From Polytrichum commune (lineage: Eukaryota; Streptophyta; Polytrichopsida; Polytrichales; Polytrichaceae): a stretch of DNA of 64,000 bases. The notes beneath the pieces are model-generated. The model saw nothing but the letters and a program-made list of their open reading frames with translations, was not told the DNA's origin and did not search any database. The stretch covers positions 1,056,001 to 1,120,000 of the forward strand of contig OX485809.1 in NCBI GenBank assembly GCA_950295325.1, given 5' to 3'. Below, in pieces: positions 12,736-62,110 of the stretch (position 1 is its first letter; every line of letters starts with the position of its first letter). Both the position numbers and the translations under genes were made by a program.

Positions 12736-12965
12736 AGGGCCGCTTCATACTATGGCCGTCCAAATCAAGAGGCCGTGGAATTGAGTGGCCAAACTTTGTT
12801 AAGAGTCCAAAGAAATGAGTTGAAAATAACCAATAAAATATAGTAATTGTAGTTTGAACTTTGGCCTTAGTGTGAAGGGTCGAGAGGCCAGACTCTTGGT
12901 TTCTTGCAATCTCACTGGTGGAAATCAACGGCCTCGTGACCTCCGGCCATAGTGTGAAGCGCCCT
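12736..12965. mobile_element. Miniature inverted-repeat transposon, family A, copy 1
   Basis: The ends GGGCCGCTTCATACTATGG and CCATAGTGTGAAGCGCCC are inverted repeats; the flanks are TAA and TTAA. The element is about 230 bp and has no ORF of note. A second, rearranged copy sits upstream of KARI at 39599-40073 in the opposite orientation. Confidence 0.8.
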
Positions 12966-28960: not shown

Positions 28961-29987
28961 GTAGGTATCGGCCTTGTTTTTATATTTCTTTTTTGTCAGA
29001 ATCTTGGACTCCGTGCTTCTCATTGGTGCAATTTCTGAAATTGGCCCCAACCATGTTACAACAAGGGTGATGCCAATTTTTCCAAAGGGTTTTATTATTC
29101 ATAATAAACATGATCTGACATGGTCCAAGCTTGAGCAAAGGAACGCAACATTCTAGGAAGGCTAATTCTTGAGACCAATGCCAAATTTATGTGTGTGTGT
29201 GTATGTGTGTATATATATGTATATATAAAACTAATATAACATATAAACATATAAACATTATATATATATGTCCTAAACATATACATTTTTGAAGTGTTTT
29301 AGGCCATTTGATTGATTGGAAATCTAAACGATTTCCTCCCTTTTTTCTCTCCCTTCATCATTTATGCAACAACCTCTTTGTTCTTGACTTCAAGGCCACG
29401 AGACATGGGAGAATTTGGCCCTTGTCATAATCCTATTCCAAGGAATGATTGGGACGACCTCAAGACCAAATAGGGGCTGAAATCTCATTGAATCGACCCC
29501 AAGAAAAATTGGTCTTGACCTCAAGTGTTAACCAACCTTTACTTTTAAAGATTCAAAGCCATTTAAAAAGTGATACATAGTAGACATACCTATTTCTAAT
29601 CCCCCCCCAAGTCTTAATACGGTAGATAGAGTCTCCCAAAACTATGAAGTTCCACACATGTGGCCGTCACATTTAGCGTGATGGAAAAAAGTAAGTTAAA
29701 AGTGCACGGATTTGGGTTCCTTGATAAGGCCACTAATTGCACTCAAGTTTCCATATCCTGCTATTAAAAAAAAAGTCGACCTATAATGTGAATATGGGTT
29801 GGTAGAGAATCTTGCCTTTGAAATTTTAAAGTGTTTTCAAAACTTGAAAATCTAAAAAATGTGACTATTTTATCAAATGCTATGACATCAATTTCCAGGC
29901 ATGTGAAGAATCACCCCAATAATATCACACGTGTACTACACTTATGCGAAATTGCTTAAGTTAATGGAAATAGGTCTGTGTACTCTA
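28961..29987. other. Gene-free AT-rich DNA with (GT)n/(AT)n run
   Basis: A GT/AT microsatellite lies at about 29190-29230, followed by ATATAAACAT repeats. Nothing coding seen up to the retroelement. Confidence 0.6.
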
Positions 29988-30379
29988 TGTCACGGTATGC
30001 GGCGTCGACGGCCGCATCTTATCCGTTGGGTTTCATCCATCTAGATTTGGATGGATGAATCTAGATGTGAAGAGGAAGGCTCCTAAGTGAGGAGCCTCCT
30101 CCTTGGCTTGGCATTCTTGCCAAGTCAAGTCTTGTGAGTTAGTGTGTGGAGAGAGCTTGTGTGAGGTGTAGATTGCATGATTTTGCAATAAATCTTGAGT
30201 TCTTCTTCCCCTACTTACACTCTTGGATTCTCCCTTGGTGGAGTGAGAGATAGCTTGATTAGTTGTGTGCATTTGAAGAGAGATTTAGAGCTATTGTGAG
30301 TGTTCTACTCTCTTCCTTCTCACTTGGCAAGAATGCTTCATTTCTTTATTTTGTTCTCTTTTCTTCTTGATTCTTGACA
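29988..30379 (+). repeat. Candidate 5' LTR
   Basis: Starts TGTCACGG and may end TTGACA at 30379, giving TGTCA..TGACA inverted tips as in many gypsy LTRs. It holds a palindrome around CATCTAGATTTGGATGGATG and a T-rich 3' part. There is no second copy downstream to prove it, so this is a guess from structure. Confidence 0.35.
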
Positions 30380-31931
30380 TTTAACACGCAAGGAGGCGCG
30401 TGGGGGCAAGGAGCGACGAAATTCCAGAGTTTTGGAGCGGAGAAAGCCGCGGATTATTGAAGCAACAAGAAGAAATAGGTGTTCTTGTGAAGTTTAGACA
30501 TCACTTTGAATTGTGGTGAGAATCCCTTGAATTTTCCACGGAATTTCGTATTATTTTGCTCAAATTCAAGCTTGAATTCGAGACATTGATCTTGGAGAAT
30601 GGAGTTGTGATTCTAGAGAGAAGATTGGAATAAAAAACACACATTAAAAAAAATAAAAAATGAGGCAGTCTGCCTCCCTCTGTTGTCTGCCCCTGTACCG
30701 GCCCTGCCTGCCTAAGCTGTCTGTCACTATGCCGACCTTCGGCGGCTGCCTGCGGCAGCTATCGTCCCTCGGTGGCTGTTTGCGTCATCTGTCGGTTCCC
30801 TGCGGTTGCCTGCAGCAGCTACCTGCCTGCTAGCTTACGTGCCTGCTGTTGTACCTGCCTGCCAGGGTACAACTACATTAACTAAATCCCCCCCTTCAGT
30901 TGGGGTGGATTAAATCAATCCAGGGAATCGGGTTGATTTTTGGGCATAAGGGGTCGAGGCTGCCTCCCCGATCGGGGAGCTTGTTGGGCATAATTGGTTG
31001 GGACCCAAGTGTTTGCAAGTCCAACCGGTTATATTTTATTTTTGTTTTATTTTTTGTTTTGTTTTTATTTTGTGTTTTAATTAATTAATTAAAACCAGAT
31101 TTTTTAAATTTAATAATTAAAAACCGGATTTTTTATTTTAATTAATTAATTAGTTACTTTAGATTCCTACAACTTCTAATCCTTTGTCTTCTCTCTAAGA
31201 GGTTAATTTCTTGGGCTCATTAATCAAGGATACAAGGAAAAAAACTTAAGCTCTTATGAAGTATTAAACATACTTGGGATTTCTTTTAGGGGTTGTGTTA
31301 TACAAAATTTCCGAGAGAAATGTCATTGGCAATTGGGTGGCATGTAGAATTTCCGTTCGGCCTAAAATAAATTATTATTAAGGTCGAATTGTGTTTGTCA
31401 ACACATATTCCCGACATTATTGTGAGGAGGGATTCTTAGGTTGTAGTGGGAAGATGAGAGATGTGCATATGTAGCATTTCCTTTTCTTAAGCAACAGGGG
31501 TTCTTCATTTTGACCACCAACCGCAGGCGGGTGCCGGTTGGTCGCGGTCGTTTTCAATTTTTGCTTAAATGTTGTTTGGGGAAGAGGATCCAGTGCTGAA
31601 AATTGCATTGTTTTCTGTCTTTTGTTTTGGTACCTTCCCCCGTGGCGGGTTGTATTGCTGGCAGTTGTCGGCATTGCCCCATTTTGTGTTGTTATAGATT
31701 GTGATAGGGTAGTGTGGAGGTGAGGTCGGATTAATGACCGACGGGACCTTTGTTTGTGCACCAAGTGGGCGGTGCTTGTTTTCACTTGTGGTGAGGCTGG
31801 GTTAATGACCAGCAGACCATAAGTTTTGGTGGTGGTTGTAGGTGCAGGTTGCCTTTGACCATTTTTCTCTTTGTACCTGGATACTAATTCATTTTGGGTT
31901 GTTGATTCGGTGACCATCCCATTGTGGGTTT

Positions 31932-33701
31932 ATGGTTACAACTCGTATTCAACACTATCGTTCTCCGTCCCCATGAGCATCGGAAGGTCATCCCTCGGAC
32001 CTCTCGGACATTGAACCAGTGGTAGCACCCAACGAGGCTTTTCAGCCTACTTCGGCGTGGGGGACTATCACTCGGTCTCACGTCCTGTGGGTGGGAACCT
32101 TTGACGATATGGAGGACGAGACTAGGGGAGGGATATGGGACCGGTTTTCTGGTCGAGCAGAGACCATTTCTCTGCAAGACTGGAAAATCCGGTTTCGTAC
32201 GTGGATGCGAGAGAAACGCCAACGAAATACCAATTTCAACGATTGGTATGCATTCGAGCTTCTGCCCCAACATTTGGAGCACGAAGCTCTTCAAACTTAT
32301 GAGCAGTGGACGGAGGCTCATTGGATGGAGCTGCGCCAGGTGGAGCGGTACTGGGAGACTCGGGTTGAGTTGGTATCCGCATTGAAAGAAGGCGCAGCTT
32401 CCAGTTTCATGGCCGTTCCGGATGTCAAGACGGAGGTACCGGAGGGAGGTTATGTGGTGGATGTGGAGGGAGCTCCTCCTGGTGAGCCGAGGGCTACGGG
32501 TCCTGCTCCCACTGCGGCGAGTACGGCGAGCCCAGTTCTTCCACTCTCGCGTTATGCTATGGCCACCCAAGCGGCTTTAGCCTCTTTAGGGGCTCCGCCA
32601 GATTTTGAGCCATTGCGGGCATTTGAGCTGCATATACAGGGGGAGTACAGAGGCTTCCGTCGTGACCACATGCAGCGGATACAAGATTTCAGACGGGAGA
32701 AGGACGATACACCTCGTACCATGTATACGAGGTTGGCGAGGTTTGCCAGAGAATCTGGAGGTGTGTTCGCGGAAAGTCAGTTGGTGAAGGTGTTTTTGTC
32801 AAAAATTGACAAACGTCTCCTTGATTTGGCGCTACCCAGGATCATCATGGAGTTTGGTGGTCGAGCGACACTCGCAGAGGCATTCGCCGTGGTGGAGCAG
32901 TGTGATCGTGCATTATGTCAGCACGATGCCACTGATTTGGTGTCCTTGCTAGTGGATTCTAACAAATCCCGAAGAGTTCCGGTTGCGGCTGCGGGATTGG
33001 CGGAGGCCGAGGTAGACAAGACCATGTATTGTTGGTCTTGTGGGCAGGCTGGCCACGCTAAGAAGGATTGTCCTTCGAAGCAAAGGCAAGCCCAGACCGT
33101 CACTACTCCGAAGCGGAAACCATTTGTTCCCACTAAGGGCTTGGCGAAGGGGACGACGAGTAATCAGTTACCCAAGCAGTTGAAGTGTTCCCATTGTGGG
33201 CGGAACAATCACACGGTAGAGAACTGCTTTGCTCTCCATCCTGAGAAACGTCCTTCTTCCGACCGGGAGAAGACGTTGGAGGCGAAGATTGGAGCCATGG
33301 AGGAGAGGTTCAAAAGCTTGGCGTCATCCGGCCAAATTTTGGCCTCACCGTCTTCCTCCGGAGCTCAGGCTAGTTCTTCCACTCCGGATTACTATATGTT
33401 CGGAGCCTCGGGCGAGGTGGTGAGTTCCGCGGCCGTGACACGTGCTCAAGCCGTGTCACAATCCATACCTTCGACCACAAATGAATATGTGGCAAATTCG
33501 CGAGCTCGGGACAATGCGCCCGCGGACCAAATTGGTCAGGCACGCCTACCATTATCCTTTGGATTAGCCGATGCCGTCCAATCTGTCAGTGGTCGTCATC
33601 CGAACGATGAGGTTTCACGTTCAGCGACCGATGTGACGCACACGTTGGCATCCAAGGTGTTGCACACACCTTTGTTCACGGCCATGGAGTGGTCATCGCC
33701 A
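31932..33701 (+). pseudogene. Gag region with two CCHC zinc knuckles
   Basis: After the stop at 31974 the frame is open to 33701; the first later ATG is 32109. A retrotransposon Gag core is seen around 32590-32910 (FELHIQGEYRGFRRDHMQR through FLSKIDKRLLDLALPR). Two nucleic-acid-binding zinc knuckles follow: CWSCGQAGHAKKDC from 33030 and CSHCGRNNHTVENC from 33186. The second has the usual C-x2-C-x4-H-x4-C spacing. Two knuckles are common in gypsy elements. The stretch before the core is Ala/Pro-rich. It would coat and package element RNA. Confidence 0.85.
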
Positions 33702-33704
33702 TAA

Positions 33705-34568
33705 TTCCAACCTGCTAAGGTTTTTCACTTAGCAGGTAGGATTTTGGAAGGGAAAGCATCCTTACCTTCTCTGACCGTGGCTCAAGCCACTACGGACATC
33801 CCTGCTTCTGAAGATCCCGAGGATGTGGCCAAACGGCGAGCGAGACTTGCGGCAGAGACCATTGCGTCTTTTGACGCACACGCCTCAAATGACAAGGCAC
33901 CGACCACGTTTTATGACTCACCAGTATCCGCGGGTGCAGCTTATCTGTTTGATGTCGCTGCTAGACCTGTCCGCGAGCGCCGCGGCATTCGACCCGGCGT
34001 TGTGCGTATGGTGAATGATACTGGAATTTTGGTGGTCAGTCGCACTGGGAGCAATGCTACTCGTGTTTCTTCCCGTTGTGTGATGTTGGATTCAGGGGCA
34101 CAACCAGTTATGATAGGCAAGAGGCTTGCCCAAGAGTTGAGGTTGACGGCCGAGGATTGGGCTCCCTGTCCATTCACCATTGTTACATCCATTGGTCACG
34201 TGGAGCGGGCCATGGGTTATACTCGAGAGCCATTACAGCTTAGCTTCCGAGTGAAGCCTGGAGATTCACCCGCACCTCTTCTTCTTAGGTGTGCGGTGAT
34301 GGATGCGACCAACTATGACATTTTAGTTGGTCAGCAAGCACTTTACCCTCTTGGTTTTGGTTTGGACAACTGGACTGAGGAGGCGTGGATTCGACCAGGT
34401 TGGTCGGCTGGGGATGGCCACAGGGAACTTATTCCCGTGGCTTTCGCGGCGGCCGCGACCATAGCACCATTATCTATGGTTTTTGGATGTGGTGCTATGG
34501 TGGACACATTGCCTTATGGTTCCGCATTGTTGGAGGAGTCATTGGCATTCATGGGGAGTACAGACGAT
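33705..34568 (+). pseudogene. Retropepsin-type aspartic protease region
   Basis: Open between the stops at 33702 and 34569. The active-site motif VMLDSGAQPVMIGKRLA has its catalytic Asp at 34089-34091. Strands typical of gypsy proteases follow (GYTREPLQLSF, then CAVMDATNYDILVGQQAL, where DILVGQ is the usual second motif). It should cut the polyprotein. Upstream of the active site is a linker of about 110 residues. Confidence 0.85.
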
Positions 34569-34577
34569 TAACGGGAT

Positions 34578-35780
34578 ATGACACCTAAGGGTGCATTGGT
34601 GCGCCATCCCAAGGATCCCCTTCCTCCTTGGCGTGATTCCGCCGAGCTATTTCGGAGGTGCGAGGATATTGTTCACTCTCTCACTCCTAGGACACCGGTC
34701 ATACCGAGTGTCCTCTCGGCATTGGCACATCCCATTTTATGGCAGCCGCCAGACGCGGGGATTACTTTGGTGGAACTGTTTGGGGGCATCGACACAGGCT
34801 TAGCGGCCGTATTGGAGGCTGGCCTCACGGTCAGACGGTATGTCTATGTGGACAACTCTCCAGTGTCCACCCGTGTGGTTCGTCACCATCTTCACCAGTT
34901 GATGGTATTGTACCCCCAGCAGTTACACCCAACTGCCATTCATGGGTGTTTTTCACGTCTCCCTCGTGATGTTACACTCATCAGTGAGGCCGACTTACGA
35001 CACTTGGGCCCGGTGGATATGGTGATGGCGGGATGGCCATGCCAAGGCCACTCACGTGCTGGAGCAGGCCGAGGTTTAGAGGATCCCAGGTCTAGCCTTT
35101 TCTGGGACCTCATCCGGCTTATGCAGTGGTGGTTTACCCACCAACCTTCCCCTCCAGGGTATATCTTCGAAAATGTACCTTTGTTGGGAGACTCTCGGGA
35201 CAAGGTGTTGGAAGGCAATTATTATGTTCGTCAACACCTTGGAGATCCCATTTTTGTGGGTGCCGCGAGCATTGGTTCTTATGCCCACCGACCTCGGTGG
35301 ATTTGGACCAACCTCGCACCGTCATCTACTTTAGCTGCAGCATTTTCTGCAGTGCCTCCATCTTTTGATCAAAAGGTGGATGACATCTTGGATCCAAACC
35401 GGACCTCTTTGCCGGTTGTTCGAGATGATTTACCCCCGTTGCCATTGGTCAACAAAATGGGGGCACCACGGCGGGCCTTTCCCACATTTATGACGTTTCC
35501 ACAGTCATTCGCTTTCCGCAATAAGGGGCCGGGTATGGTGTGGGATGTTCACACCAAAACCCACACCGAACCATTGGCTGACGAACGGGAGCGTGCCATG
35601 GGATTCCGCACTGGCACCACCGCAGCTCCCGGCCTTTCTGAGGGCCAACGACGCTTCGTGTTGGGCCAAGCTATGGATCTTCATACTATGGTGTGGACTG
35701 TTGCTTTATGCCTTTCATTGCAAAGGCATCGTGGTGACCAGTGGTTGTCTCTGGGGGCAGAGGACTCTGGTCAGGGGGCA
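34578..35780 (+). CDS. Cytosine-5 DNA methyltransferase (DNMT3/DRM-like) inside the retroelement
   Basis: An uninterrupted 401-codon block between protease and RT. It has its own ATG just after the stop at 34569, so it could in principle be made alone. C5-methyltransferase motifs are in linear order: motif I LVELFGGIDTGLAAVLEAG (Phe about residue 68, AdoMet binding); motif IV GWPCQGHS, with the catalytic Cys at about 155; motif VI ENVPLL, with its Glu at about 198; motif VIII AHRPRWIWTN at about 236-245; then a target-recognition stretch, DERERAMGF, and motif X RRFVLGQAMDL near 361. The motif I to VI spacing and the GRGLEDPRSSLF and LGDSRD blocks resemble animal and plant DNMT3-type enzymes more than MET1 or CMT. 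There are no BAH, PWWP or chromodomains. All key residues are present, so the domain looks catalytically competent. Reaction: methyl transfer from AdoMet to C5 of cytosine in DNA. Confidence 0.9.
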
Positions 35781-35783
35781 TAG

Positions 35784-36014
35784 CGGTCCACACCCATGGA
35801 AGAGGGAATTCACGCCATGGTTCGAGAAGCCGAATGAATTTTTCAATTCGAGCAGCATGTGATGGAGGAGCTTCGAGCTCAACATTTTTACACTGCTTCG
35901 GTTTCTTCGCCTCCGGTGGTGGCTTCATCATCACATATTGGTGGTGATGAAGAAATGTCAGACTCTAGTACTAGCACCGAGACTGGGGGCATGGTTAATG
36001 CCCCCTCCTGTCAT
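35784..36014 (+). pseudogene. Linker between methyltransferase and reverse transcriptase
   Basis: The same frame continues but is broken by TGA 35835 and TAG 36015. It encodes an acidic Ser/Thr-rich segment (GGDEEMSDSSTSTETGG), probably an interdomain linker. No known domain seen. Confidence 0.6.
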
Positions 36015-36017
36015 TAG

Positions 36018-37673
36018 CAATTAGAGTCTGTGCCAGCATTAGGTGGTTCTCCTTTGGTGGAGAGGGAGACTACAGAGTTTGATGATTGGCCACTTGAATT
36101 AGGCCCTCGTCTCACTGGTGCTGAGGCACGGAAGGTACGAGCATTTATTCGCTCGTACCGTAGATGTTTTGCTTTTAGCCTTCAGGATCTTGAAGGTTAT
36201 AAAGGAAAACCCATCCACATTCAATTGGAGGACGACCATCCCATTTTTCGGAGACCTTACAGGCTTAGTGTTTCCGAGCGGATTGGCGTTCAGGCTCGTT
36301 GCCGAGAGCTCTTGGCAGCAGGGCTAATCGAACTTTCCAACGGGGAGTATGCTTGTGCTACGGTTATGCCATCGAAGAAGGATATCTTTGGCAATTGGAC
36401 GGAGAAGCGGATGTGTGGGGATTACCGTCCAGTTAATCGGAAGACCAAGTCGGATCGATATCCCATGCCAATCCCGGAGGAGTTGTTCGATGCCCTCGGA
36501 TTTGCTCGAGTCTTTAGCACGTTGGACTTGAGATCCGGCTATCACCAACTCCCATTACTTGTGGGAGACCGAGTGAAAACCGCATTCTGGGGAGTTGATC
36601 AAGATGGGAAAGATCAACTTTACCATTGGAAGTTTCTTCCGTTTGGCCTGAAGAATGCACCTGCGGAGTTTCAGAGAGTGATGGACCAAGTTCTCTCTGG
36701 CTTACCCTTTGCTCGGTGTTACATTGATGACGTTATCATTTTCAGTATAACACCACAGGAGCACGTAAGACATCTTCAAGCCGTTTTTGAGCGGTTGCAG
36801 CGGTGGGGATTGCGCTTGCACCACGGCAAGTGCAAGTTTTTCCATGACCGGCTGGCATATCTGGGGCATATGATTGTTCCAGGAGGTCTTGGGGTACAAC
36901 AAGCTAAGGTGGACGCCTTGCAGAAGATTCCGGCACCGGTTGATGTGCCGAGACTTCGTGCTTTCTTGGGCTTGGCGAATTACTATCGGCGATTCGTCAA
37001 GAACTTTAGCTTGATCGCCAAGCCTCTCACCATTCTCACGAGCAAGGACCAACCATGGACTTGGGGTCGTGAGCAACAACAGGCGTTTGAAATATTGAAG
37101 CAGAAACTGGGTACGGCTCCAGTGCTTCGACGTCCAGATGTCTCCAAATCTTTCCAGTTGCATACGGATTGGAGTTCATTGGGTTTGGGAGCAGTTATCA
37201 CTCAGAAGGATGATTTTAGCCGGGAGTATGTTGTTGCTTACGCTTCGCGAAACAATAACACGGCGGAGGCTAATTATTCATCCTACGAGGGAGAAGCATT
37301 GGCGGCGGTATGGGCTATTGCTCATTTTCGGCCGTATCTTTATGGTCAGCACTTTACTTTAGTGACTGACCATCAGCGGTTACGGTGGCTCATGGAGTCA
37401 GATAAGCTTACTGGGAAGCTTGCTAGGTGGGCTTTGTTGCTCCAAGAGTATGACTTTGAGGTGGTACACCGTGCTGGGATTACCAACCTGGATGCAGATG
37501 GACTCTCGCGCAATCCAAGTCCTTCGGATGAGGACTTGACTAGGGCCAGGTGGCATGGAGATTGTGATCGAGAGGCGGTTCCAGGTTGGCACGCGGCTGC
37601 TTATTTCACTTTATTTTCTGGTGCATCTGTTGATATTCTGATACAGGGCTCGGATGATGAGACTGATCGGCCT
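36018..37673 (+). pseudogene. Reverse transcriptase and RNase H
   Basis: An intact 552-codon stretch between stops. RT landmarks: FSTLDLRSGYHQLPL, LPFGLKNAPAEFQRVMD, and the catalytic box CYIDDVIIFS (Tyr codon at 36720), then the thumb with FLGLANYYRRFVKNFS. RNase H follows with LHTDWSSLGLGAVITQ, EGEALAAVWAI and VTDHQRLRWL, ending near LDADGLSRNP. The order and motifs are those of Ty3/gypsy elements. It would copy element RNA into DNA and degrade the RNA strand. Confidence 0.93.
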
Positions 37674-37676
37674 TAA

Positions 37677-39002
37677 GCTATTGCCGATATATGGGAGGAT
37701 CTTCCCGTATTGCATAAGCTTCAACAGGGTACCTTTCCTTTGTCTATTTCGGCAATGGAAAGGGATAGGATTGGACATCGAATAACAAGGTTCCGTTGGG
37801 AGAACGGTTTGTTATTTCGATTGTGGCCGGATGGGACAAGGCGTATTGTTCCTAGGCCGGATCAGAGGGCCTCCTTGGTGCGACAAGTGCACGAGGAACT
37901 TGGCCATTTTGGCATACGCAGGACACATTTGATGTTGCGTGGCCAATATTGGTGGACTGGCATGTATCAGCAGGTGGCTGCATATGTCGGGAGGTGTGAA
38001 GTTTGTGACCGGATCAGGTCTAGCTTTAACACCTTATCACCTCAGTTACAACCCTTACCTATCATGGGATTAGGCTACCGTTGGTCGCTGGACTTTGCAG
38101 GGCCGTTGGTGGTTACACCACCAAAGTACGTTTTGGTGATGGTGGAACATTTTAGCAAATGGATTGAGCTTGTTGCTCTACCCCAGAACTCTGCAGAGTT
38201 GGCCGCGGCCGCCTTTTTGGATCGTGTGTTAGCACGTTTTGGAGCACCAGCTGAGGTGTTGACGGACCAAGGGAGGGAGTTCCTTGGTGCTTTTGAGGAG
38301 TTGTGCACTAAGGCTCTCATAGATCACCGTACCACCTCTCGGGATCATCCGGAGGCAGATGGCTTGGCTGAACGGGTTGTTCAGACAACCAAGCGTGGCT
38401 TGAGGAAGTATGGATTACTTCGGGGAAGCCACCGGAATTGGGACCTTATGTTGCCATGGATTGCTATGGGCTATCAATTTAGTAGGCAGGCCTCTTTGGC
38501 ATCCTACAGCCCGTATCAATTATTGTATGGACGTGAGCCTATACTCCCGAGTTCTATTCGGGAAAAACTAGCTCCTGTTGTGAACTTAGATGACCCAGAC
38601 CTTTGGGTAGAGTGTTTACAGGAGCAGGCTTAATTCTTCCAGAGGGCCATGCCTATGGTCATGGAGAATTTGTCCATTGCTCAGCACCGTGACACATTGC
38701 GTTATGCACGCATTCGTAGTGGTGCTTACCGACCTCAGTTGCGGAGATTTCGGCAAGGGGATTATGTTTATCTTCAACGTGAGGCGCCTACGACATTGGA
38801 TGTCAGGGCGGGGCGCACTATCCTTCGGGTGAAGGAGGTGTTGCCGAGTGGTTTGTTGTTGTTGGAAGACAAGAATGGCAGGGAATGTCGCGAACATTCC
38901 AAAAACTGTGCCCCATGTCATCTACCTATTGAGGGTACAGTTCATTCTGAACTGGCTGTCGTACCAGAGGGTTTTCCATGTTTTGTGTGTGGAGAGAAGA
39001 AA
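37677..39002 (+). pseudogene. Integrase, split by a stop at 38631
   Basis: Zinc-binding HHCC domain (HEELGHFGIRRTHLMLR and CEVC). The catalytic core has Asp in SLDFAGPL, Asp in TDQGREFLGAF and Glu in HPEADGLAERVVQTTKRG, so the DDE triad is complete. The stop TAA at 38631 falls after the core, and the C-terminal part (RFRQGDYVYLQREAP and KEVLPSGLLLLEDKNGREC) continues in frame, resembling the GPY/F-type tail region. It would insert element DNA into the host genome. Confidence 0.88.
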
Positions 39003-39119
39003 TGAGCGGCTACTATGCTCTTGTGTGATCAGTGTCAACGCGGTTGGCACATGACATGCTTGAGGCCACCCTTGACTTCTCTACCATTTGGACAGTGGAG
39101 TTGTCCTCGCTGTCGAGGA
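38979..39119 (+). pseudogene. C-terminal PHD-type zinc finger of the polyprotein
   Basis: In the polyprotein frame the ligands run CFVC, then after the stop at 39003 CDQC, HMTC and CPRC, the C4-H-C3 order and spacing of a PHD finger, with the usual Trp two residues before the last pair (QWSCPRC). PHD fingers commonly read histone H3 tails. Its position after integrase is where chromoviruses carry a chromodomain, so a targeting role is plausible inference. The frame ends at TGA 39156. Confidence 0.75.
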
Positions 39120-39431
39120 TCTTCGGTACTTGGTGCTTCCACCAATCGTGCTCAATGATCCTGTGTGGTTTTCATCATCTTGTGCCTGCCCAAATGGAAA
39201 ATAATGAGTTATGGCATAGAGACGCAATCAACATGAGGCGGTGGATTTAATTCTTTGGGATCTGATGGCCAAACATCAGAGGCGATTAAGGATGGGGCTT
39301 ACCTTGCACCCAGCCTACAGTTCCTTGGAATAACGTTTACCACACTAGTTAGTTGTGGAGCAATCTTTCATTATCCATGCCCTTTAGATTGGCATTGGTC
39401 CTAGTTGCTTGGCGGGACTCCATAGTCAGCT

Positions 39432-39440
39432 GAGGGGGGG
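39432..39440 (+). other. Polypurine tract
   Basis: GAGGGGGGG directly precedes CA and then TGTCGAGG, the usual layout of a plus-strand primer followed by the start of a 3' LTR. The downstream sequence does not match the candidate 5' LTR beyond the first few bases. Confidence 0.5.
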
Positions 39441-39598
39441 CATGTCGAGGTGTGTTGTTTATGTGTGACTTTGCTATGTTTTAGTGTTGTTTGTTAGTGG
39501 TGGTTGGTACTCGAGCTGCAGTGACACACGATCGCTATTTACACGACATCTAGGTTTCCAACGAAGAAGCATGACCACATGAGCCCCAAACACCTTAA

Positions 39599-40073
39599 CG
39601 GGCGTTTCACACTATGGCCGAAGGTTGAGAGGCCGTTGATTTCCACCAATCGAATTACAAGAAACCAAGAGTTCGGCCTCTCGACCCTTCACACTAGAGG
39701 CCAAAGTTCAAAGGCCATCGCAATTTGAAGAAGGCGACGGACTCTCGAAGGAAGTTTGGGTCGGACGGGAATGGAAATCCAAACTATGGTCGAGAGGCCG
39801 TTGGTTTTTTTCCATTAAAAAATCAATCATTGACAAGATCCTGGCCGTTAGATTGGAGGGGTTATTTTGAACAAGGAATAAAGTACAATGCTCCTTTGGG
39901 TTTGGACTTTGGACTTGGCCTTTGAAAGCTTCACACTATGCCTGGCCGAAGGCTCCACTTACTATATTTCATTGGCAATCTATTTTCAGCCCATTTCTTT
40001 GGACTCTCAACAAAGTTTAACCACTCAATCCCATGACCTCTCGACTTCGACAGCCATTGTGTGAAGCGGCCCT
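39599..40073. mobile_element. Family A miniature transposon, copy 2, with internal insertion, upstream of KARI
   Basis: The ends CGGGCGTTTCACACTATGG and CATTGTGTGAAGCGGCCC correspond to the ends of the 12736-12965 copy, inverted. The left part (39599-39730) and right part (39928-40073) align to that copy; about 200 bp between them (39735-39927) are extra and contain another CTATGGTCGAGAGGCCGTTGG block. It ends 378 bp before the KARI start codon. Confidence 0.75.
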
Positions 40074-40450: not shown

Positions 40451-46052
<5,602 letters not shown>

Positions 46053-61119: not shown

Positions 61120-62110
61120 ATAATTTACCACGTGCCCTAATTGGCAAGGATGGTACGTAAAGCTCATTACTCCCCATGCTTTTCTATCCATGTGACGAGC
61201 ATTTCATCCATAATTTATTTATTTTTAATTTAATTTTTTTTTCCGGAAAGATGTAGCAATCAATGCCTATAATCTTTGGTTTTTGTCCATGAGTAGACCA
61301 GTTATGCCCCATGTAGGGTTGGACTAAGTGGATGTCTCGTTGCTATTGTAGCGGTTGTCCTCTTGTTGGATATTTAGTTTGCGAAGGTTACGTGGTGATT
61401 TGCATGCACCAGGGAATCTCAAACAACACCATATAAAACACATTGTTGTGCTTGGCATGGTAAGAACCTCCTCCTCACAGTTTCTATCTATGTGGAGAGC
61501 ATTTCATCCATAACCTTTGATTCTTGTCCATGGGCAGACCGGTTATGCCTTGTGTAGGGTTGGATTAGGTGGATGTCTCATCCGTTACTCTCCTCTTGTT
61601 AAATATCTAGACTGCAAAGATTAGGTGGTGATTTGCATGCACGAGGGAATCTCTATCAACACCTAATAGACCACATTGTTGTGATTGGCATGGTAAGGAC
61701 CTCCTCCTAGCCTTTTCTATCTATGTGGAGAGCATTTCAACCATAACCTCTGGTTTTTGTCCCTGAGCAAACTAGTTATGTCCCATATAGGGCTCTAAGA
61801 GTAACTCGATGTCTCGATGCTATTGTGACTCGTTGTTTATTCTCCTCTTGTTGAATATGTGGTCCTAGAAAGCTTAGGTGGCGATTTGCATGCACCATGC
61901 ACCTCTATTAACACCTATGAATAGACCACATTGTTGTGATTGGCAAAGTAAGGAATTCCCCCTATGCTTTTCTATCTATGTGAAGAGCAATTCATCCATA
62001 AACATTGGACTTTGTACATGACCATAGTGGTTATGTTCCATAAAGGGCTAGAGTAGGTGGAAGTCTTGTTGTTATTGTAGCTCATCATCCACTCTCCTCT
62101 TGCCGGTTTA
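61120..62110. repeat. Tandem array, units of about 240 bp (left block)
   Basis: Units share CACATTGTTGTG.TTGGCATGGTAAG, CTATGTGGAGAGCATTTC, TTTTTGTCCATGAG, GTTATGCC..TGTAGGG and GTGATTTGCATGCAC. Anchor positions are near 61135, 61438, 61673 and 61925, so the spacing is about 235-300 bp. No ORF is kept between units. Confidence 0.75.

Follow-up and report, generated by a model that had tools for sequence, protein, structure and literature searches.

The window analysed, a 64,000-nucleotide stretch of the Polytrichum commune genome, contains a Ty3/gypsy retrotransposon at positions 29988-39548, which begins with TGTC, ends with GACA and lies between two TCTA duplications. Its coding sequence occupies a single frame on the forward strand (31932-39158) that runs through Gag, protease, a DNA cytosine methyltransferase (DNMT), reverse transcriptase (RT), RNase H, integrase and a PHD finger. 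The features are given below, where identifiers beginning with L denote other copies of the element and C is a second subfamily.

29984..29987, no strand: left target-site duplication TCTA (by eye; equals 39549-39552)
29988..30321, +: repeat A (A1), starting TGTC; 95.5-97.0% identity to A2 of the sister copies L102, L104 and L107
30111..30125, +: segment complementary to the primer-binding site, predicted RNA 5' end; 15/15 nt reverse complement of 30322-30336
30322..30336, +: putative self-priming primer-binding site; 0/20000 shuffles as long; L054 and subfamily C differ here yet are complementary
31932..33701, +: Gag with zinc knuckle (PF00098), interrupted by the stop at 31974; N-terminus set by eye against L110
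33705..34568, +: aspartic protease region (LDSGAQP) with the stops 33702 and 34569 on either side; Pfam match below cut-off, L054 and L110 have it at the equivalent place in their protease-DNMT chains
34578..35780, +: DNMT3-like cytosine methyltransferase domain (Pfam, PDB sequence search, profile, model and fold search)
35781..36014, +: C-terminal tail of the DNMT chain, interrupted by the stops 35781 and 35835; L054 has a tail of 102 aa and L110 one of 120 aa
36015..36023, +: conserved stop context TAG-CAA-TTA, probably leaky; TAG-CAR-YYA in 20/20 loci and 9/10 more
36018..37673, +: reverse transcriptase and RNase H (PF00078, PF17917, PF17919)
37677..38630, +: DDE integrase (PF17921, PF00665), following the stop at 37674
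38634..39155, +: integrase tail ending in a PHD finger (PF00628, 2.4e-10), with stops at 38631 and 39003 and the frame end at 39156; unbroken in L054
39433..39440, +: polypurine tract AGGGGGGG, immediately before repeat B; the G-run is found likewise in 18/18 other copies and L054
39443..39548, +: repeat B, single in the window copy and ending GACA (comparison with other copies)
39549..39552, no strand: right target-site duplication TCTA (by eye)

The frame of the window copy has no frameshifts and ten stops, at 31974, 33702, 34569, 35781, 35835, 36015, 37674, 38631, 39003 and 39156. The stop at 36015 is common to other copies and that at 39156 closes the frame; the remaining eight are disabling, so this copy is dead, and the suggestion made in an earlier sequence-only reading that the element can methylate DNA fails for it, since it is no working element. 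The limits of the 401-aa open reading frame are themselves disabling stops, and translation does not natively start at the ATG at 34578. In its native form the DNMT chain extends to the equivalent of position 36014, with no earlier stop in L054 or L110, and in the intact copy L110 Gag, protease and DNMT form one frame of 1365 aa. The assignment to Ty3/gypsy made in the same reading is confirmed by the order Gag-PR-RT-RH-INT (protease, RT, RNase H, integrase) and the DDE integrase, the protease being matched weakly. The DNMT had also been described as lying in frame between protease and RT; frame and position are both correct, although in this copy the stops at 34569, 35781, 35835 and 36015 separate the domains.

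The open frame of 401 codons (34578-35783, +, stop included) matches the C5 methyltransferase family PF00145 at 3.4e-12 and carries the motifs originally named for it in canonical, unpermuted order; in DRM enzymes the motif order is permuted. In a single-sequence search of the PDB the best matches were DNMT3A (7.6e-10), DNMT3B (7.4e-9), the plant entry 4onj (1.7e-6), which we take to be DRM, and HaeIII (7.4e-5), while a 24-sequence profile matched DNMT3A at 6.7e-23, DRM2 at 2e-9 and HhaI at 1.1e-7. A model of the domain calculated from a 35-sequence alignment has a mean pLDDT of 90.5 and a pTM of 0.91, and the best 50 of its 202 PDB fold matches (E up to 0.001) are all entries for DNMT3A, 3B or 3C, some of them complexed with 3L, with identities to DNMT3 of 20-23% across the fold matches listed. 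The best Foldseek match among viral proteins (2.7e-15) is weaker than that in the PDB (1.0e-16). The catalytic residues Cys155 and Glu198 (of the ENV motif) are invariant in 24 aligned sequences, the window copy among them; in the alignment of 35 sequences Glu198 is still invariant and Cys155 is present in at least 90%. Among solved C5 methyltransferases the element enzyme is closest to DNMT3. It has the fold and the canonical motif order in common with animal DNMT3A and DNMT3B, but contains PCQ where these have PCN, and neither a PWWP nor an ADD domain was found by Pfam in the 401-aa frame. The domain at 34578-35780 is a genuine C5 methyltransferase, far beyond chance, and, as had been proposed, a complete one, the whole DNMT3 fold being present in the model and in the PDB fold matches.

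The RT is preceded by TAG-CAR-YYA in 29 of the 30 loci read. These comprise a set of 20 without exception (the window, L054, ten subfamily C copies and L074-L081) and ten RT loci with no scored DNMT match, of which only L119 departs from the motif; the variants CAATTA, CAATCA, CAACCA and CAGTTA all fall within the consensus. L115 keeps the motif before RT and has no DNMT in the stretch read. UAG CAR YYA is the leaky stop of the tobamovirus type, and the stop and the next six bases found here are identical in type, the difference being that they lie in a retrotransposon, after a DNMT. Judged on this motif, the stop is probably leaky. In L054 and the C copies the Gag-protease-DNMT frame terminates at the TAG and the RT frame is in the same phase, so that the DNMT is part of the Gag-protease chain and RT should be obtained by readthrough of the stop. 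The RT frame is open directly after the TAG in L054 and in eight of the ten C copies: in seven the second frame has 1047 open codons from the TAG onwards, and that of c7b meets a new stop after 253 codons. The long frame of c2 and c4b has its start further downstream. With a leaky stop before RT, the enzyme would be expected at the dose of Gag. The methyltransferase does therefore sit inside the polyprotein between protease and RT, as first described, but as part of the Gag-protease chain, ahead of a conserved stop that is probably leaky, and not simply as a piece of Pol. The stop is not general, since P0092, a relative of 2358 aa, has none between DNMT and RT and the Marchantia gene models P0087, P0088, P0091 and P0094 continue into RT. 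The Marchantia models P0082, P0083, P0085, P0089 and P0090 end 79-84 aa beyond the matched DNMT stretch, and many metagenome relatives, seen as proteins in which the next codon is not visible, end at the equivalent place (e.g. ...GGMNALSATK).

A PF00145 search of the 408-Mb genome returned at least 123 scored matches from 353 candidates, a lower bound that may include host DNMT genes, with open frames of up to 1386 aa. The RT search gave at least 79 scored matches from 3013 candidates, 47 with a scored DNMT match upstream and 32 without, and the integrase search at least 129 from 2557. Ten of the 32 RT loci without a scored DNMT match, most of them among the first listed, were fetched: five hold the whole DNMT core, four part of it and one none. 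As nine of the ten still hold DNMT sequence, members without it are thus rare among the closest RTs. In all 18 loci read that had been selected on the DNMT (the ten C copies and L074-L081), where its presence follows from the selection, RT adjoins the DNMT and the stop context. The DNMT is a trait of an abundant, multi-copy element family; the 47 RTs with a DNMT and the nine fetched loci settle the question, left by the sequence-only reading, of family trait or one-off capture. The intact copies that it proposed to look for exist, with L110 and its 1365-aa chain among them.

Relatives of the element occur in mosses and liverworts, going by the names attached to the matching proteins. Protein searches yielded 66 relatives, of which one is plant-named (Sphagnum troendelagicum); 32 relatives, of which 13 are named Marchantia polymorpha and one Sphagnum fallax; and 98 relatives, in most of which the DNMT follows RNase H and precedes integrase, and of which one bears the name of a green alga, Monoraphidium neglectum. 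No record named Klebsormidium was present among the relative proteins found. In a table of 200 rows (194 of the proteins and six segments taken from the window, C and L054), 93 have RT/RNase H before the DNMT, 44 have protease before it or RT after it, 51 have the DNMT alone, eight have it before integrase only and four have no DNMT. In P0054, P0127 and P0152, with the DNMT after RNase H, a G-patch domain is also found. The PR-RT and RH-INT layouts separate in both trees, with support of 98/73 in the DNMT tree (50 rows, including 26 sampled from 82 usable RH-INT rows, with some PR-RT layouts assumed from relatives) and 100/100 in the RT tree (34 rows); both were built without DNMT-less RT outgroups and so give no choice between one and two origins of the DNMT. 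Of the host classes DNMT3, DRM, MET1 and CMT, the DNMT tree contains a single 167-aa piece of DNMT3A, on a very long branch. The two trees disagree on the branching of the window subfamily, C and L054, and exchange between these lineages may have occurred.

Single-sequence scans of viral and bacterial collections found no loci. A profile scan of viral contigs gave 53 loci with 24-55% identity, which were taken for ordinary viral C5 methyltransferases, and among 20 loci from the bacterial collection only L054 is the element, the others having 23-41% identity. L054 lies on a contig with identical ends of 127 nt (circular) that was binned in the cyanobacterial AVDCRST_MAG81, and is probably plant contamination.

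Between families the DNMT has a dN of 0.207-0.266, three to four times that of RT (0.061-0.071). Synonymous sites of the DNMT are saturated, the single finite ratio being 0.094 (L076 vs L054); the finite ratios for RT are 0.027 and 0.040. Among the C copies dN/dS is 0.565 for the DNMT (45 pairs) and 0.114 for RT (36 pairs, c4b excluded), and among three copies of the window subfamily it is 0.330 for the DNMT (3 pairs). The 320-codon DNMT core is exactly 960 nt long in 16 of 20 loci and 957 nt in L077; in L074, L075 and L079 it is in two pieces. Constraint on the DNMT is clear over long times and weak or mixed over short ones, the latter because of the high ratio in the C copies compared with that of RT. 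The weak recent constraint and the faster change than in RT count against the explanation preferred below.

Changes private to the window copy comprise 23 C-to-T or G-to-A against 6 in the reverse direction over 3237 aligned columns, and decay with no frameshift fits C-to-T change. In six pooled copies of the window subfamily C-to-T (or G-to-A) changes are seen at 67/1655 CG, 53/1372 CHG and 113/5556 CHH sites, and transitions at A or T at 40/8431. From this excess the decayed copies were probably methylated in the past. The excess does not identify the methylating enzyme, however, and host enzymes alone would leave the same CG/CHG/CHH decay, which counts against reading it as self-methylation.

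Directly after A1 there is a stretch complementary to the interior of A, of 15 nt in the window copy and 13 nt in L054 and in all ten C copies. Equal complementarity was reached by 0, 1 and 2 of 20000 shuffles each for the window, L054 and one C copy, respectively. The paired sequences vary between the three subfamilies with the complementarity kept, as in covariation, and in three cross-subfamily comparisons only 7-8 nt of the primer site fit A. This pattern suggests that reverse transcription is self-primed in the manner of Tf1.

The window copy has the form A-internal-B, with one A on the left and one B on the right, and the initial LTR search found no direct repeats of at least 60 nt around it because the repeats are split. 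Of the ten subfamily C copies, which were picked for long open frames and are therefore biased to young copies, eight are A-internal-B-A-B and two A-internal-B; the A pairs are 99.3-99.8% identical in seven and 94.6% in one (gaps included). Eight further 3' ends, drawn from the PF00145 matches, comprise six with A2 and B2, one ended by the end of the stretch and one passing from B into flank. A2 and B2 are present in 14 of 19 copies, the window included, absent from four and undecided in one. Two full direct LTRs are absent and split A/B repeats are found instead; the coding content is still LTR-retrotransposon-like. The DDE integrase and the target duplications place the element outside the DIRS order, whose members use a tyrosine recombinase and are not known to make target duplications.

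Given the primer-binding site and the G-run before B, reverse transcription should make an LTR of the form B-GC-A. Integrated copies, contrary to this, start with A and end with B, which a two-LTR circle opened at GACAGCTGTC would match. The proposal that A-internal-B-A-B copies come from such a circle, opened by integrase at this palindrome, with A-internal-B copies such as that in the window derived from a one-LTR circle or produced later by recombination of B1 with B2, seems to us evenly balanced. In 12 of 14 copies A2 and B2 join exactly at the LTR ends that the primer-binding site and polypurine tract predict, the variants in L109 (a duplication) and c4b, also L099 (a short deletion), being such as end-joining would give. 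A 4-bp target duplication, scored by eye and within the 4-6 bp expected of a Ty3/gypsy element, is found in all 11 copies with both flanks (8/8 A-internal-B-A-B and 3/3 A-internal-B). Template bridging of the DIRS type could yield an equal layout, however, and B1-B2 recombination accounts for the short form without a circle. L054 is a circular contig, yet assemblers make such circles from repeat-flanked elements.

The PHD finger of L054 has among its best matches the fingers of CHD4, PHF12, UHRF1, KDM5 and PHF21A, several of which read unmodified H3. By analogy the finger may guide the site of insertion.

We consider it likely, with a probability of about 0.6, that the element in the window is a dead member of a high-copy Ty3/gypsy family, related to those of mosses and liverworts, in which a DNMT3-type enzyme forms the last domain of the Gag-protease precursor and serves the element's own DNA. 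This builds on the domain order, the TAG-CAR-YYA stop, the split repeats and 4-bp duplications, the self-complementary primer site, the PHD finger and the long-term conservation of the DNMT, all seen in the sequence. In the proposed mechanism ribosomes would mostly stop after the DNMT and occasionally read through, so that the enzyme would be made at Gag dose and enter every particle; reverse transcription would be self-primed; the new cDNA would be methylated by the element enzyme before or at integration; and the copy would arrive marked, to be tolerated or shielded, at a place that the PHD finger may help to choose. It is rather doubtful whether the scheme can be taken further, to a bryophyte gypsy lineage in which many enzyme copies per particle, supplied by the Gag precursor, methylate the cDNA, which then becomes a two-LTR circle that the DDE integrase inserts by cutting the internal 10-bp palindrome. 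Insertion of circles was long argued, and rejected, for retroviruses.

An unlikely alternative is that the enzyme acts not on the element but on the host or on rivals, its abundance shifting host methylation or warding off competing elements or DNA viruses. The copy number and the predicted Gag-level dose would suit this, and an antiviral role has been proposed (PMC6338049, available text), but the location of the enzyme in the particle precursor speaks for the particle as its place of action. Less likely still, the domain might be a passenger kept in the particle for structure or nucleic-acid binding, with catalysis incidental or lost. While the faster change of the DNMT than of RT and its weak recent constraint would be expected of a passenger, the conservation of Cys155 and Glu198 in both alignments, the whole DNMT3 fold of the model and the retention of the DNMT at two different polyprotein places in two groups all argue against it. 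That a fragment of a host DNMT gene was captured once, at the window locus, can be dismissed, as the domain stands at the same place across the family and in relatives from other plants, and no point in its support was found.

Elements of this kind are already known, and the earlier statement that algal and dinoflagellate retrotransposons carry DNMTs is borne out by the cases from Klebsormidium nitens and Symbiodinium (PMC5890265, available text). KnitGypsy-Dnmt3 of K. nitens (de Mendoza et al, 2018; PMC5890265) is likewise of the Ty3/gypsy type and has a polyprotein that includes a DNMT3-type domain, and the available text describes DIRS-like repeats with gypsy domains (Fig. 4 legend) and intronless copies under constraint; the element here is multi-copy. 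It differs in its algal host and in that its DNMT is reported in the Pol ORF, whereas that described here is on the Gag side. The available text of PMC5890265 makes no mention of a PHD finger or read-through and reports target duplications only for SymbioLINE. Expressed in yeast, the KnitGypsy-Dnmt3 domain gave no methylation, a result its authors regard as inconclusive (PMC5890265, available text) and one that counts against our preferred explanation. SymbioDIRS-Dnmt3 and SymbioLINE-Dnmt of Symbiodinium are retrotransposons with cytosine DNMTs, the former with A-coding-B-A-B repeats as here, but they use tyrosine recombinase or LINE machinery, and no DDE integrase is described in the same text. 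The streptophyte and dinoflagellate cases are cited in a 2025 paper (PMC12344493, available text). Methylase-encoding transposons are stated to be absent from land plants, such as tracheophytes (PMC6338049, available text), and for Marchantia five DNMTs are given (MET, CMT, DRM) (PMC5784723, available text). The available portions of PMC6453930, PMC9516144, PMC9033089 and PMC11244446 hold nothing on such elements in bryophytes, and that of PMC6317226 no match for PHD, methyltransferase, bryophyte or Marchantia. Among the titles listed by searches of the open-access literature, no report of DNMT-carrying gypsy elements in bryophytes was found. Together, the host range, the Gag-side place, the stop context, the PHD finger, the self-priming and the split repeats with a DDE integrase distinguish the element from the cases already known. 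Tf1/Sushi and Tcn1 elements have a chromodomain and ordinary LTRs and, to our knowledge, no DNMT, whereas the present element combines a PHD finger with split repeats. What they would have in common is self-priming, described in the Tf1/Sushi and Tcn1 chromoviruses (PMC6317226, available text) and predicted here from sequence complementarity.

An element equipped with the type of enzyme by which its hosts silence mobile elements presents a testable paradox. Compared with the published algal and dinoflagellate cases, there are here more than 100 scored matches in one plant genome, many with open frames, and Marchantia and Sphagnum have relatives as well. From its place on the Gag side the enzyme is predicted to be packaged, and the combination of split repeats with a DDE integrase raises a testable question on DNA insertion.

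An ATG at 40451, 0.9 kb downstream of the end of the element, presumably lies in the first exon of a ketol-acid reductoisomerase gene, the later exons of which match KARI_N and KARI_C. This gene spans 40451-45300 in several exons, and a segment at its first exon (40717-40822) is repeated downstream at 41259-41362 with 78% identity. In the 64-kb window no tRNA was found, and Rfam gave no match at gathering scores. Two copies of a small inverted-end element (GGGCGTTTCACAC...), which looks like a MITE, lie at 39600-40071, between the retrotransposon and the reductoisomerase gene, and at 12738-12964, with 434 and 185 nt between their arms, respectively. A tandem-like direct repeat with 75.7% identity over about 600 nt is found at 61269-62102.
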